Source: Marmoricola sp.
Lineage (GTDB): Bacteria > Actinomycetota > Actinomycetes > Propionibacteriales > Nocardioidaceae
Reading direction: 5' to 3'
DNA: 64,000 nt
NCBI GenBank assembly: GCA_025964775.1
Contig: JAOPYE010000040.1
Span: 1-64,000, forward strand
Shown: positions 25,733-53,798 of the stretch, one piece after another
Numbering within the stretch: position 1 is the first letter of the stretch
Layout of the letters: every line of letters starts with the position of its first letter
The notes under the pieces: generated by a model
The model's input: the letters and a program-made list of their open reading frames with translations, nothing else
Databases searched by the model: none
Told to the model about the DNA's origin: nothing
Made by a program: the position numbers and the translations under genes

Positions 25733-25825
25733 CTCGATGTCCCCTCTCGCAACTAGGCTGCAACCCGAAGGCAGGCCCCTGAAAATGAGGCACCGTAGCA
25801 ACCAGACCAGAGGGTGAATCATTCC

Positions 25826-27904
25826 GTGACGCTTCCCGGCAGCGCCGACCGGCTGCTCGACGCGCTCGACCCGGAGCAGCGCGCAGTCGCCGAGGCCCTG
25901 CGAGGCCCGGTGCGGGTGCTCGCCGGAGCCGGGACGGGCAAGACCCGGGCCATCACCCACCGGATCGCGTACGGCGTGGCGACCGGCGTCTACAACCCCT
26001 CCGAGGTCCTCGCCGTCACGTTCACCACGCGCGCCGCCGGCGAGATGCGCACCCGGCTGCGCTCCCTGGGAGCGCCGGGTGTCCAGGCCCGTACGTTCCA
26101 CTCGGCGGCCCTGCGCCAGCTGCGGTACTTCTGGCCCCGGGTGTACGGCGGGGAACCGCCCGAGCTCACCGCCTCGAAGATCCCGGTCGTCGCCGCGGCC
26201 GCCCGCCGCAACCGTCTCGACGTCGACCAGACCCGGCTCCGCGACCTGGCCAGCGAGATCGAGTGGTCCAAGGTCACCAACGTCCGGCCCGACGACTACG
26301 TGAGGCTCGCGCCGCAGCACGGCCGCGAGGTCACCGGCGTCGATGCCGCCTCGGTCGCGCATGTGTTCTCGACGTACGAGGAGCTCAAGCGCGAGCAGGG
26401 CCGGATGGACATGGAGGACGTGCTGCTGATCGGAGCGGCCCTGCTGACCGAGGACGACCGGGTCGCGGCTCAGGTGCGCAGCCAGTACAAGTGGTTCGTC
26501 GTGGACGAGTTCCAGGACGTCAGCCCGATCCAGGCCGCCCTGCTCGACCTGTGGCTCGGCGGCCGCAACGAGATCTGCGTCGTCGGCGACCCGGCCCAGA
26601 CGATCTACTCGTTCGCCGGCGCGCGGGCGGCTTACCTGACCGAGTTCAGCCGAAAGTACGAGGCCGTCACCAGTGTCGAGCTGGTCCGTAACTACCGCTC
26701 GACGCCGCAGGTGATCGCCGCCGCAAACAGCCTGCTCGCGGGCACCGCGACCGGCTCGGTGCAGCTGCGCGCCCAGCAGCCCGCCGGCGAGGAGGTTCGC
26801 TGGTTCGAGGCTTCCGACGAGGTCGCCGAGGCCGCCGCGGTGGCCGACCGGATCGCCGAGCTGCGCGCCGCCGGGGTGCCGTTGCGGGAGATGGCCGTGC
26901 TCTTCCGGATCAACGCCCAGTCCGAGACGTTCGAGGAAGCACTCGCCTCGCGTTCCATCCCGTACGTCGTGCGCGGCGCCGCGCGCTTCTTCGAGCGTCC
27001 CGAGGTGCGCCAGGCGCTCGCCCTGCTCCGGGCCAGCCTGCGGGCGGGCGAGGCGGCCCGCGACGGCATGCTCGAGCAGATCCGCGCCGTACTCGGCGGG
27101 ATGGGCTGGAGCACCGAGGCGCCCACGGCCCGCGGTCAGGCCCGGGACCGGTGGGAGTCGCTGATGGCGCTCGTCTCCCAGGCCGAGGAGTACGCGACCA
27201 GCGAGCTCGCCCCGACCCTCGAAGGTTTCGTCGCCGAGCTGGACCGGCGCGCCTCCGAGCAGCACGCACCGGTGGCCGAGGGCGTCACCCTGGCCACCCT
27301 GCACACCGCCAAGGGCCTCGAGTGGGACGCAGTCTTCCTCGCCGGCATGCAGGAGGGCTCGATGCCGATCTCCTACGCCGACACCCCGGCGGCGGTCGAG
27401 GAGGAGCGTCGGCTGCTCTACGTCGGGGTCACCCGGGCGCGCAAGCACCTGATGCTGTCGTGGTCCCTGGCCCGCAACCCGGGGGGCCAGTCCCGCCGCA
27501 AGCCGTCGCGCTTCCTGGCCGGGCTGCGTCCGGAGTCGGCGACCGACCGGGCAGCAGCCACGACCAGCAGTTCGAGCCGCCGGCGCGCCAAGGCCTCCAT
27601 GTGCAAGCTGTGCCAGCGGCCGCTGGCGACCTCGCGCGAGCGCAACCGCGGGTTCTGCAGCGACTGCCCGATCCCGTACGACGAGGAGCTCTTCGAGTCG
27701 CTGAAGGCGTGGCGCCGCGTGCGGGCCGAGGACGAGAGCGTGCCGGCGTTCGTGGTCTTCTCCGACGCGACGCTGGAGGCACTCGCCGAGGTGCGGCCGA
27801 CCAACCGCCACGGCCTGCTGCGGATCAACGGGATCGGCGCGGCAAAACTCGAGAAATATGCCGATGACGTGCTCGACGTTCTCGCCGGAAAGAAATCCGG
27901 ATAA
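25826..27904 (+). CDS. uvrD2: ATP-dependent DNA helicase UvrD2
   Basis: A 692-aa superfamily 1A 3'-to-5' helicase. Seen: Walker A AGAGTGKTRA, TFTTRAAGEM, DExx VVDEFQDVSPIQ, GDPAQTIYSFAGA, LHTAKGLEWDAVFL and YVGVTRARKHL. UvrD2-specific features follow: a four-cysteine zinc module (CKLC ... CSDC) and a C-terminal HRDC domain (VFSDATLEALAEVRPTNRHGLLRINGIG). GTG 25826 fits AGAGGGTGA at a normal distance; GTG 25814, in frame, begins directly after AGAGG and is less likely. Mycobacterial UvrD2 is essential. The whiB7 promoter overlaps its stop codon. Confidence 0.94.
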   Translation: MTLPGSADRLLDALDPEQRAVAEALRGPVRVLAGAGTGKTRAITHRIAYGVATGVYNPSEVLAVTFTTRAAGEMRTRLRSLGAPGVQARTFHSAALRQLRYFWPRVYGGEPPELTASKIPVVAAAARRNRLDVDQTRLRDLASEIEWSKVTNVRPDDYVRLAPQHGREVTGVDAASVAHVFSTYEELKREQGRMDMEDVLLIGAALLTEDDRVAAQVRSQYKWFVVDEFQDVSPIQAALLDLWLGGRNEICVVGDPAQTIYSFAGARAAYLTEFSRKYEAVTSVELVRNYRSTPQVIAAANSLLAGTATGSVQLRAQQPAGEEVRWFEASDEVAEAAAVADRIAELRAAGVPLREMAVLFRINAQSETFEEALASRSIPYVVRGAARFFERPEVRQALALLRASLRAGEAARDGMLEQIRAVLGGMGWSTEAPTARGQARDRWESLMALVSQAEEYATSELAPTLEGFVAELDRRASEQHAPVAEGVTLATLHTAKGLEWDAVFLAGMQEGSMPISYADTPAAVEEERRLLYVGVTRARKHLMLSWSLARNPGGQSRRKPSRFLAGLRPESATDRAAATTSSSSRRRAKASMCKLCQRPLATSRERNRGFCSDCPIPYDEELFESLKAWRRVRAEDESVPAFVVFSDATLEALAEVRPTNRHGLLRINGIGAAKLEKYADDVLDVLAGKKSG

Positions 27905-27939
27905 ATGATTTGCGCCCCCTGTTAGCGCGGGCGTACCTT
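27900..27939 (+). promoter_or_regulatory. whiB7 promoter with AT-rich upstream block
   Basis: TTGCGC (27910-27915), an 18-nt spacer, then TACCTT (27934-27939). Just upstream of the -35 is GATAAATGATT, AT-rich and very unusual in this genome. Characterised WhiB7-controlled promoters have an AT-rich stretch beside the -35, bound by the WhiB7 AT-hook, so autoregulation is expected. It overlaps the end of uvrD2. Confidence 0.7.
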
Positions 27940-28012
27940 TTCCCCAGTCCCACTGCGCACTGACGGCCCCGACAAGGCCGGCGCCCAACGCCCCGAAGGA
28001 GGTGCACGACCC

Positions 28013-28213
28013 ATGAACATCAACCAGTCCTGGCTCAATGAAACCGTGACGCGGTCGACCTCCGTCGTGCGCGTCCACGGTTTTGGCATGGGTGACGTGT
28101 GCCCGATGGCTGCCGGTTACACCGCCAGCTCGTCGACGACGAAGCGTCACGCAGATGCCATCAAGGCCAACCCGGTTGCGGGCCGCCAGCCTTGGAGTCC
28201 ACCTGTCACATGA
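28013..28213 (+). CDS. whiB7 leader ORF (attenuator uORF), 66 codons
   Basis: ATG 28013 is preceded by a very strong AAGGAGGTG. The product (MNINQSWLNETVTRSTSVVR ..., ending WSPPVT) has no recognisable domain. Its position in the whiB7 5' leader, before an intrinsic terminator and with its final codons containing the 5' strand of an antiterminator, marks it as a regulatory leader ORF. In other actinobacteria translation of such ORFs senses ribosome-targeting antibiotics: smooth translation favours termination and stalling favours read-through to whiB7. The peptide itself may be non-functional. It ends with PP-V-T just before the stop; prolines slow ribosomes, which may matter. Confidence 0.8.
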   Translation: MNINQSWLNETVTRSTSVVRVHGFGMGDVCPMAAGYTASSSTTKRHADAIKANPVAGRQPWSPPVT

Positions 28214-28276
28214 GTTCACCACTCATCGACCGGCACCTCCAAGGCCGCGAATCCCAACCAAGGGATCCGCGGCCTT
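28189..28276 (+). promoter_or_regulatory. whiB7 attenuator: antiterminator/terminator pair
   Basis: Terminator: AAGGCCGCG (28241-28249) pairs with CGCGGCCTT (28268-28276), extended after one mismatch by ATCCC (28251-28255) with GGGAT (28262-28266), followed by a T-rich tail (28279-28285). Antiterminator: GCCTTGGAG (28189-28197) is perfectly complementary to CTCCAAGGC (28237-28245), which takes over the terminator's 5' arm. A small hairpin, ATGAGT (28210-28215) with ACTCAT (28221-28226), nests inside and contains the leader stop codon. A ribosome at that stop would cover 28189-28197 and let the terminator form. Confidence 0.8.
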
Positions 28277-28332
28277 CGTGTTTCTCAAACAGTTTCAACC
28301 AGCGATCGACACAGAGAAGAAGGAGGTGACAC

Positions 28333-28608
28333 ATGACCATCAGCGTTCTCGACCCCACGAGCTTCGATGAGGAGCTGCTGCCCTGCCGGGTGAACTCAGC
28401 AGAGCTGTTCTTCGCCGAATCACCCAGTGACGTGGAGCTCGCCAAGGCCTTGTGCCAGGGCTGTCCGGTTCGCACGGAGTGCCTCGCCGGCGCTCTCGAG
28501 CGCCGGGAGCCGTGGGGTGTCTGGGGAGGTGAGCTGTTCCAGTCCGGAGCAGTGATCCCCCGCAAGCGCCCACGCGGTCGCCCGCGCAAGAACCCCGTCG
28601 CAGCCTGA
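28333..28608 (+). CDS. whiB7: WhiB7 transcriptional activator
   Basis: A 91-aa WhiB-like Fe-S protein. Four cysteines (Cys18, then CQGC and EC around residues 41-50) ligate the 4Fe-4S cluster; EPWGVWGGEL is the sigma-factor-binding loop; the C-terminal RGRPRKNP is the AT-hook that distinguishes WhiB7. It binds the principal sigma factor region 4 and switches on intrinsic multidrug-resistance genes. ATG 28333 follows AGGAGGTGA. Expression is expected to be controlled by the leader ORF and terminator upstream and by autoactivation. Gene order uvrD2-whiB7-ABC1 kinase is as in mycobacteria. Confidence 0.95.
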   Translation: MTISVLDPTSFDEELLPCRVNSAELFFAESPSDVELAKALCQGCPVRTECLAGALERREPWGVWGGELFQSGAVIPRKRPRGRPRKNPVAA

Positions 28609-28690
28609 AGCCCAGGCCCGGCAACAGCCTGAGAGCCCCTCGACCACTGAACGGAATGACATGACCCAGACCTTCGAACGGAGCAACACG

Positions 28691-28855
28691 ATGAGCCTCA
28701 TCGCAACCGATCTGGCGCGCGAGCATATGAGCGCGCGCCTCGAGCAGGCGCAGAGTGCGCGTCGCGGGCACCAGCTCGCGGCCGCAAGGCGCCTCTCCCG
28801 CAAGGCTGAGCGCGCCGCTGCCCAGGCGCGTCTGGCTCTTGCCCGCGTGATCTGA
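28691..28855 (+). CDS. Small helical hypothetical protein downstream of whiB7
   Basis: About 54 aa from ATG 28691 (preceded by CGGAG at 7 nt): MSLIATDLAREHMSARLEQA, then an Arg- and Ala-rich helix ending ARLALARVI. An in-frame ATG at 28661 would add ten residues. There are no cysteines and no signal peptide. It looks like a basic amphipathic helix of unknown role. It sits 82 bp behind whiB7 with no terminator between, so it is probably co-transcribed with whiB7, and the 21-bp-stem terminator follows it. Confidence 0.55.
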   Translation: MSLIATDLAREHMSARLEQAQSARRGHQLAAARRLSRKAERAAAQARLALARVI

Positions 28856-28936: not shown

Positions 28937-28994
28937 AAGGCCGGACCGACGGCGACACGTTTTTCACCGACACTGTCGCCGTCGGTCCGGCCTT
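28937..28994 (+). terminator. Very strong terminator hairpin, 21-bp perfect stem
   Basis: 28937-28957 is perfectly complementary to 28974-28994 with a 16-nt loop containing TTTTT. It ends the whiB7 operon. The loop's T-run makes classic tail placement unclear, so it may also block transcription from the opposite side. Confidence 0.75.
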
Positions 28995-53725: not shown

Positions 53726-53798
53726 TGCCCCAGGCAGGAGTCGAACCTGCGACCTTTCGCTTAGGAGGCGGCTGCTCTATCCACTGAGCTACTGGGGC
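53726..53798 (-). tRNA. tRNA-Arg (anticodon CCU)
   Basis: A 73-nt cloverleaf on the minus strand. Acceptor GCCCCAG/CTGGGGC, D stem GCTC/GAGC, anticodon loop CTCCTAA (anticodon CCT, AGG codon), T stem GCAGG/CCTGC with TTCGACT loop. The 3' CCA is not encoded. The anticodon stem is GCCGC against GCGAA: three good pairs near the loop and two mismatches (G27-A43 and C28-A42) at its base. Confidence 0.93.

Follow-up and report, generated by a model that had tools for sequence, protein, structure and literature searches.

What decides whether whiB7 is transcribed in an actinobacterium of the family Nocardioidaceae? The DNA analysed here, which we call the window (64,000 nucleotides (nt) of contig JAOPYE010000040.1 from a Marmoricola genome of 3.9 Mb in 53 contigs; all coordinates refer to its forward strand), carries a whiB7 gene whose leader is about 386 nt long, taking a putative transcription start as its beginning. 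The leader separates whiB7 from a helicase gene, its upstream neighbor, which is context outside the switch considered below. An earlier note on this DNA had interpreted the leader as an attenuation switch. Our analysis supports this interpretation: all the parts it named are present, and comparison with related sequences suggests selection on each of them. We conclude that the leader is very probably a ribosome-mediated transcription attenuator, as indicated by its parts, their conservation, the co-variation of two pairing arms, the geometry around a stop codon and the predicted folds. The kinetic competition, autoregulation and antibiotic response that would go with such a device are modelled on experiments with whiB7/wblC of Streptomyces and mycobacteria, as told in the papers cited below. 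The mechanism is already known for those organisms; what is new is the host genome, and we claim no priority for the comparative results across actinobacteria.

The product of whiB7 has four cysteines, a GVWGG motif and an RGRPRK end, which we take to be features of the WhiB7 type with an AT-hook-like terminus. Its best match has an e-value of at most 6.5e-34 in 37 of the 39 genomes searched (own included), and its relatives are mostly from Nocardioidaceae. The leader contains an upstream open reading frame (uORF) of 66 codons with its own ribosome site, just as the earlier note had described, and translation of this frame is suggested by the ribosome site together with the placement of its stop codon. 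A predicted intrinsic terminator lies between the uORF and whiB7. The nine-base perfect antiterminator pairing, which had been proposed between the last uORF codons and the 5' arm of the terminator, is borne out by a script check showing that the two arms are exact reverse complements. By prediction, this pairing is mutually exclusive with the terminator and is freed by ribosome stalling (Table 1).

Table 1. Elements of the whiB7 leader and its neighborhood in the window
Feature	Position	Strand	Basis or remark
UvrD-family helicase gene with HRDC domain, uvrD2-like	25814..27904	+	Pfam UvrD-helicase 3e-53, UvrD_C 1.5e-49, HRDC 1.2e-20
AT-rich block AAATGAT	27903..27909	+	directly 5' of the -35; overlaps the helicase stop codon
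-35-like hexamer TTGCGC	27910..27915	+	inspection and promoter pattern in relatives
-10-like hexamer TACCTT (TANNNT)	27934..27939	+	inspection and promoter pattern in relatives
Shine-Dalgarno AAGGAGG of the leader ORF	27996..28002	+	sequence reading
Leader ORF (uORF), 66 codons, end ...GRQPWSPPVT*	28013..28213	+	ORF translation, comparison with relatives
Antiterminator 5' arm GCCTTGGAG, spanning the Q-P-W-S codons	28189..28197	+	complementarity, fold
Upper antiterminator hairpin around the leader stop (28211-28213)	28202..28233	+	fold
CACCTCC, which may have a second function (complementary to the ribosome site of whiB7)	28234..28240	+	full-leader fold
Antiterminator 3' arm CTCCAAGGC, partly shared with the base of the terminator 5' arm	28237..28245	+	complementarity, fold
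Intrinsic terminator hairpin (predicted)	28241..28276	+	-25.7 kcal/mol; consensus pairs in relatives
Weak U-tract CGTGTTTCTC directly 3' of the terminator hairpin	28277..28286	+	sequence reading
Shine-Dalgarno AAGGAGG of whiB7	28320..28326	+	sequence reading
whiB7, 91 amino acids	28333..28608	+	Pfam Whib 8.6e-16

At this single locus, a run of at least nine bases complementary to the terminator arm arose in 0.84% of 5000 dinucleotide shuffles of the whole ORF region and in 0.38% of 5000 shuffles of the last 66 nt. This is moderate evidence on its own, and relatives were therefore compared. We collected 110 loci (own included), which reduce to 107 distinct upstream regions after removal of three duplicates, and asked for a terminator hairpin below -18 kcal/mol with a leader ORF ending near it. 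Both were found in 101 of the 107 regions, the window's included; dropping L034, a near copy of L011, leaves a set of 100 sequences, in which at least four ORF assignments (L023, L029, L078 and L083) look wrong. An alignment of 78 sequences was obtained by omitting these four and L034, as well as 18 near-identical ones among the remaining 96.

Many of the leader ORFs in relatives end in [A/P]-W-[S/R]-P-P. Among the 100 ORFs there are 80 TGG codons within the last 12 codons, and the next codon is AGN in 76 of them (AGT 40, AGA 21, AGC 13, AGG 2). In three reading frames of the window, AGA accounts for 0 of 155 arginine codons and AGT for 2 of 84 serine codons, and the preference for these rare codons after TGG indicates that the RNA is conserved, not the peptide alone. 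The two arms also tend to change length together, as judged by comparing the sequences: an ORF with CTTGG faces an arm with CCAAG in 12 of the 100 (the TT/AA class) and CTGG faces CCAG in 55 (T/A), while mixed combinations are few (T/AA 5, TT/A 2) and 26 are unclassified. L017, with GCTTGGAG opposite CTCCAAGC, provides an example.

The geometry around the stop codon points in the same direction. In the 76 sequences with TGGAG, the distance from the end of this motif to the leader stop is 10 nt in 37, 13 nt in 37 and 16 nt in two, despite leaders that range from 49 to 147 codons; such a near-fixed distance would be expected if a ribosome at the stop drives the mechanism. In the window 13 nt separate the end of the 5' arm from the stop. 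Folding of the antiterminator region, computed without the 3' arm of the terminator, pairs the two arms and extends the helix through 28202-28203 with 28232-28233 and 28205-28207 with 28228-28230 to a tip formed by ATGAGT/ACTCAT (28210-28215 with 28221-28226), inside which the UGA stop is found. The earlier note had placed this stop in a small hairpin; the stop is indeed held in these pairs, but the fold puts them on the same long hairpin as the arms, and the supposed separate hairpin is therefore the upper part of the antiterminator. Across the 100 sequences the predicted fold of the region is more stable than that of shuffles (z averages -3.2 and is below -2 in 79), and the stop lies inside at least seven pairs reaching the terminator arm in 95, as against 35.8 expected from shuffles. 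The enclosing hairpin is found in all 76 sequences with TGGAG and in 19 of the 24 without it. The terminator is represented by 11 consensus pairs in the 78 aligned sequences, of which seven have at least one two-sided change, though the stem is near-invariant, with 10 of the 11 pairs identical in at least 71 of the 78. When alignment A1 was folded with RNAalifold, only the terminator emerged, because the antiterminator competes with it and the arms of the A and AA classes misalign by one base; for this reason the antiterminator was tested sequence by sequence. We also considered an outer helix in which CGGGT, within the leader ORF, would pair with ACCCG of the upper terminator arm; at least four outer pairs are present in 46 of the 100 sequences. 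We do not claim this helix, as the observed value of 5.70 compares with 5.02 after synonymous redrawing and p 0.05 is reached by just 6 of 76 sequences.

The promoter likewise conforms to a pattern common in the relatives. The AT-rich block at the -35 to which the earlier note had drawn attention is present directly 5' of TTGCGC, and 18 nt separate this hexamer from TACCTT. An AT block, TTG and TANNNT at suitable spacing precede 93 of 98 leader ORFs, against 0.3 expected from mononucleotide shuffles, for a pattern written after the sequences had been seen (two of the 100 had too little DNA to be included). The AT-hook of WhiB7 presumably contacts the AT block by the -35, and the pattern would support a positive loop of WhiB7 at its own promoter.

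Based on these observations we propose that transcription starts near 27946, as judged from the -10, and that a ribosome trails the RNA polymerase along the 66-codon leader. In unstressed cells the ribosome would reach the stop in the antiterminator tip before the polymerase completes the terminator; the antiterminator would then be blocked from closing, the terminator hairpin would fold and transcription would end. A stall within roughly the first 54 codons, caused by ribosome-targeting antibiotics or amino-acid shortage, would allow the emerging CTCCAAGGC to be captured by GCCTTGGAG. This pairing would use up the base of the terminator, the polymerase would read through to whiB7, and WhiB7 made from this transcript would raise its own promoter via the AT block. 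The claim that an earlier stall frees the antiterminator agrees with a scan of stall positions, in which free RNA was taken from 14 nt past the codon centre: before the 3' arm of the terminator exists, nine arm pairs are predicted for stalls at codons 1-54, eight at codon 55, five at codon 56 and none from codon 57 onwards. When the 3' arm is included, nine pairs are kept at most positions. The earlier note further held that a ribosome at the stop masks the antiterminator. That it would exclude the antiterminator stands, although the 5' arm itself would not be covered: a 26-nt footprint centred on the codon, as used for another leader in Mycobacterium in the excerpt of PMC13236596, when applied to a ribosome on the stop, spans about 28199-28225, that is, the tip, with both arms outside. 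The terminating ribosome would therefore exclude the antiterminator mainly through the tip.

Several observations weigh against this proposal. Some concern the folds: when the complete leader is folded untranslated, the structure of lowest energy contains the terminator and not the antiterminator, and the model therefore needs kinetics, the order of events during transcription. In the scan that includes the 3' arm of the terminator, stalls at codons 7-8, 15-17, 25-26, 36-37 and 52-56 leave only five or six arm pairs, and a stall at codon 9 leaves none. The U-tract after the terminator is weak. A generic terminator scan of the window listed two other sites and missed 28241-28276, and a generic scan listed no sigma-70 promoter in the window, so that both elements rest on inspection and conservation in relatives. 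Others concern the comparison: six of the 107 regions (L041, L055, L057, L066, L073 and L076) have no strong terminator at the chosen cut-off and were left out, and the counts overstate independence because the sequences are related. With the peptide fixed and codons redrawn, the excess of arm match is modest (mean 6.81 bases observed against 5.72), with 19 of the 100 sequences at p<0.05 and the window's own p at 0.033; the match lies so near to chance partly because tryptophan has a single codon. The longest arm match is just four or five bases in 26 of the 100. Substitutions among eight relatives are distributed evenly over the codon positions of the leader body (453, 460 and 422) with no coding signature, and the body therefore seems to act as a length of translated track more than as a selected peptide, except for one short motif described below. 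Finally, seven of 20 checked genomes that do not match the covariance model described below carry WhiB7 with no recognized leader.

Some of these points would suit a constitutive leader, in which partial termination at an ordinary terminator tunes basal whiB7, the ORF is incidental, and induction takes place entirely at the promoter by WhiB7 autoactivation. The promoter pattern in 93 of 98 loci, the retention of the terminator in the equilibrium fold of the full leader and the ORF body without coding signature all agree with such an arrangement. It offers no reason, however, for the fixed distance between arm and stop, for the codon choice after TGG, for the paired change in arm length or for the enclosure of the stop in 95 sequences where 35.8 are expected, and we regard it as highly improbable. 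We give still less credence to an amino-acid-specific attenuator of the ilv- or trp-leader kind, which would sense one charged tRNA through control codons such as the tryptophan codon in the arm. The layout of terminator and antiterminator would be identical, and both this tryptophan codon and a glycine four codons earlier are conserved. Yet the 66-codon ORF has no run of control codons, its longest single-residue run being SSS, and the leader body varies among relatives; moreover, the tryptophan codon (codon 61) belongs to the pairing arm, and a stall there falls in the range without arm pairing. Amino-acid starvation also induces whiB7/wblC, according to the excerpt of PMC11550727, which is compatible with ribosome stalling in general and with an amino-acid-specific sensor alike.

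The terminator stem, almost invariant in its upper part, could also point to a riboswitch that binds a ligand, or to a leader bound by a protein, acting on the same terminator. Against this, the sole match to the Rfam 15 covariance models at gathering score anywhere in the window is a tRNA (53726-53798), with nothing in the leader, and the conserved parts, which are both arms, the end of the ORF and the leader stop, fit the ribosome as the sensor; of the alternatives we consider this the least probable.

Matches to the element proposed here are widespread in the class. A covariance model of the element, R1 (140 positions, 11 pairs), has one strong match in its own genome, at 103 bits. The next-best, L114, is a hairpin 3' of an EF-Tu-like frame (recognized by eye) at 28.1 bits; no other candidate copy in the genome exceeds this score, L115 (27.3 bits) being a plain hairpin, and the same terminator read on the opposite strand scores 25.7 bits. 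Of 296 genomes from the class, its own among them, 192 contain an R1 match (0.001 with stricter filters). A whiB7 orthologue lies directly 3' of the element in the window, relatives share this layout, and WhiB7 adjoins the R1 match in all 29 of the best-scoring new loci, which were the ones checked. Among the 20 non-matching genomes checked out of 104, 13 lack WhiB7 at 1e-15; these include all eight listed genomes of one genus of the same family that lack the element.

Certain conserved features are not explained by arm pairing, namely the glycine and proline codons, the A/U third bases and the near-invariant upper terminator stem. In 68 of 76 sequences TGG is preceded, at a distance of exactly four codons, by a glycine codon; AGU and AGA, with A or U as third base, make up 61 of the 76 AGN codons after TGG; and the second codon after TGG is CCA in 49 of 80, though CCA accounts for just 4 of 86 proline codons in a sample. 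In the folds, neither these third bases nor the CCA codon takes part in pairing of the arms. Six upper terminator pairs, not used by the antiterminator arm, are identical in 61 to 78 of 78 sequences, and this part of the stem would seem to be conserved beyond what a free hairpin needs. We tentatively raise the rather unlikely possibility that the leader end acts as a dwell timer for the ribosome, and that CCUCC may in addition mask the ribosome site of whiB7. Here Gly-x3-Trp-Ser/Arg-Pro-Pro with slow codons, 10 or 13 nt from the stop, could hold the terminating ribosome in the tip until the terminator is made. As to the second component, CACCTCC is complementary over seven bases to GGAGGTG at 28322-28328, the whiB7 ribosome site, with which it pairs in the full-leader fold; hence the CCUCC that closes the antiterminator may also hide this site in read-through RNA that lacks the antiterminator. 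In 15 of 31 sequences the antiterminator state leaves the site more open, and in one less open, in counts made with no shuffle control. In the listed Streptomyces loci, which have CACCTTCC, the number of matching bases is at most five.

A few additional observations were made around the locus. Within the leader ORF, the motif G-F/Y-G-M-G-D/E (GFGMGD at 28079-28096, codons 23-28) is kept in all eight aligned close relatives, while much of the remaining body drifts. A second WhiB7-like gene (L112, C40:45111-45329), with 55% identity and an RGRPRR end, lies 3' of a frame judged by eye to be LysR-type-like, in the same orientation. It has no R1 match, and reading of its upstream DNA revealed no comparable leader; matches scoring like it occur in several genomes of the same genus. 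Just 3' of whiB7 is a small basic ORF, MSLIATDLAREHMSARLEQAQSARRGHQLAAARRLSRKAERAAAQARLALARVI, at 28661-28855. Its true start is likely to be the ATG at 28691, and in nine sequences compared conservation starts at about the second methionine. It has matches in 80 of the 110 loci (own and the three duplicates included), Streptomyces among them, and 78 of the 80 follow the WhiB7 match in the same orientation at a distance below 500 nt; no Pfam or NCBIfam model matched it at 0.001. A perfect 21-base inverted repeat after this ORF (28937-28957 and 28974-28994) is likely, on reading of the sequence, to be an end-of-operon terminator.

The window element can be set beside several known systems. Lee, Lee and Roe (2022) are cited for uORF-mediated transcription attenuation of whiB7/wblC in the five papers that describe or mention it, and attenuation in the mycobacterial whiB7 5' untranslated region (UTR) is reportedly the subject of Burian and Thompson (2018). 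The excerpts of these five papers (PMC11550727, PMC9618640, PMC13393426, PMC13236596 and PMC12421871), to which, with those of the other papers cited here, our comparisons are limited, portray a device like that in the window: the same gene, a leader ORF, an intrinsic terminator, and an antiterminator formed upon disturbed leader translation. Streptomyces loci in our set (e.g. L086, L093 and L098-L103) share this layout. Unlike the commoner T/A class, the window has the arms GCCTTGGAG and CTCCAAGGC of the TT/AA class, one pair longer, and unlike the experimentally studied whiB7/wblC systems its switch is known from sequence alone. Attenuation was proposed for mycobacterial whiB7 by Dinan 2014 (PMC4128351), whose 5' UTR resembles ours in having a uORF about 10 nt past a Shine-Dalgarno sequence and a terminator after it; its start site lies about 350 nt upstream of whiB7, against a putative distance of about 386 nt in the window. 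That study maps transcripts in M. bovis and M. marinum, whereas our account is one of comparative sequence. In the ilvBNC leaders of Mycobacterium and Corynebacterium (PMC13236596, PMC11109978), too, stalling on a uORF favors the antiterminator over the terminator, and in that of Mycobacterium a ribosome at the stop occludes the antiterminator (PMC13236596). These leaders carry branched-chain control codons (PMC13236596, PMC11109978), while that of the window has no such run. In the ABC-F resistance leaders are5sc and tiaA, an antibiotic-stalled uORF ribosome is likewise thought to flip the terminator to the antiterminator; their peptides have three and nine residues and stall at the start codon (PMC12421871), in contrast to the 66-codon track in the window. 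Among the literature titles and abstract openings covered there was no study on a whiB7 leader in Nocardioidaceae, although no search by that name was made.

Taken together, these results give a resistance switch known from a few model actinobacteria a footing in comparative sequence data. They define one recognizable element across much of the class, for which there is no Rfam match in the window. The covariance model R1 makes it possible to find unannotated leaders of this kind and to test how stop codon and antiterminator are placed relative to each other. Should the dwell at the leader end prove true, it would make the OFF state of this switch robust.

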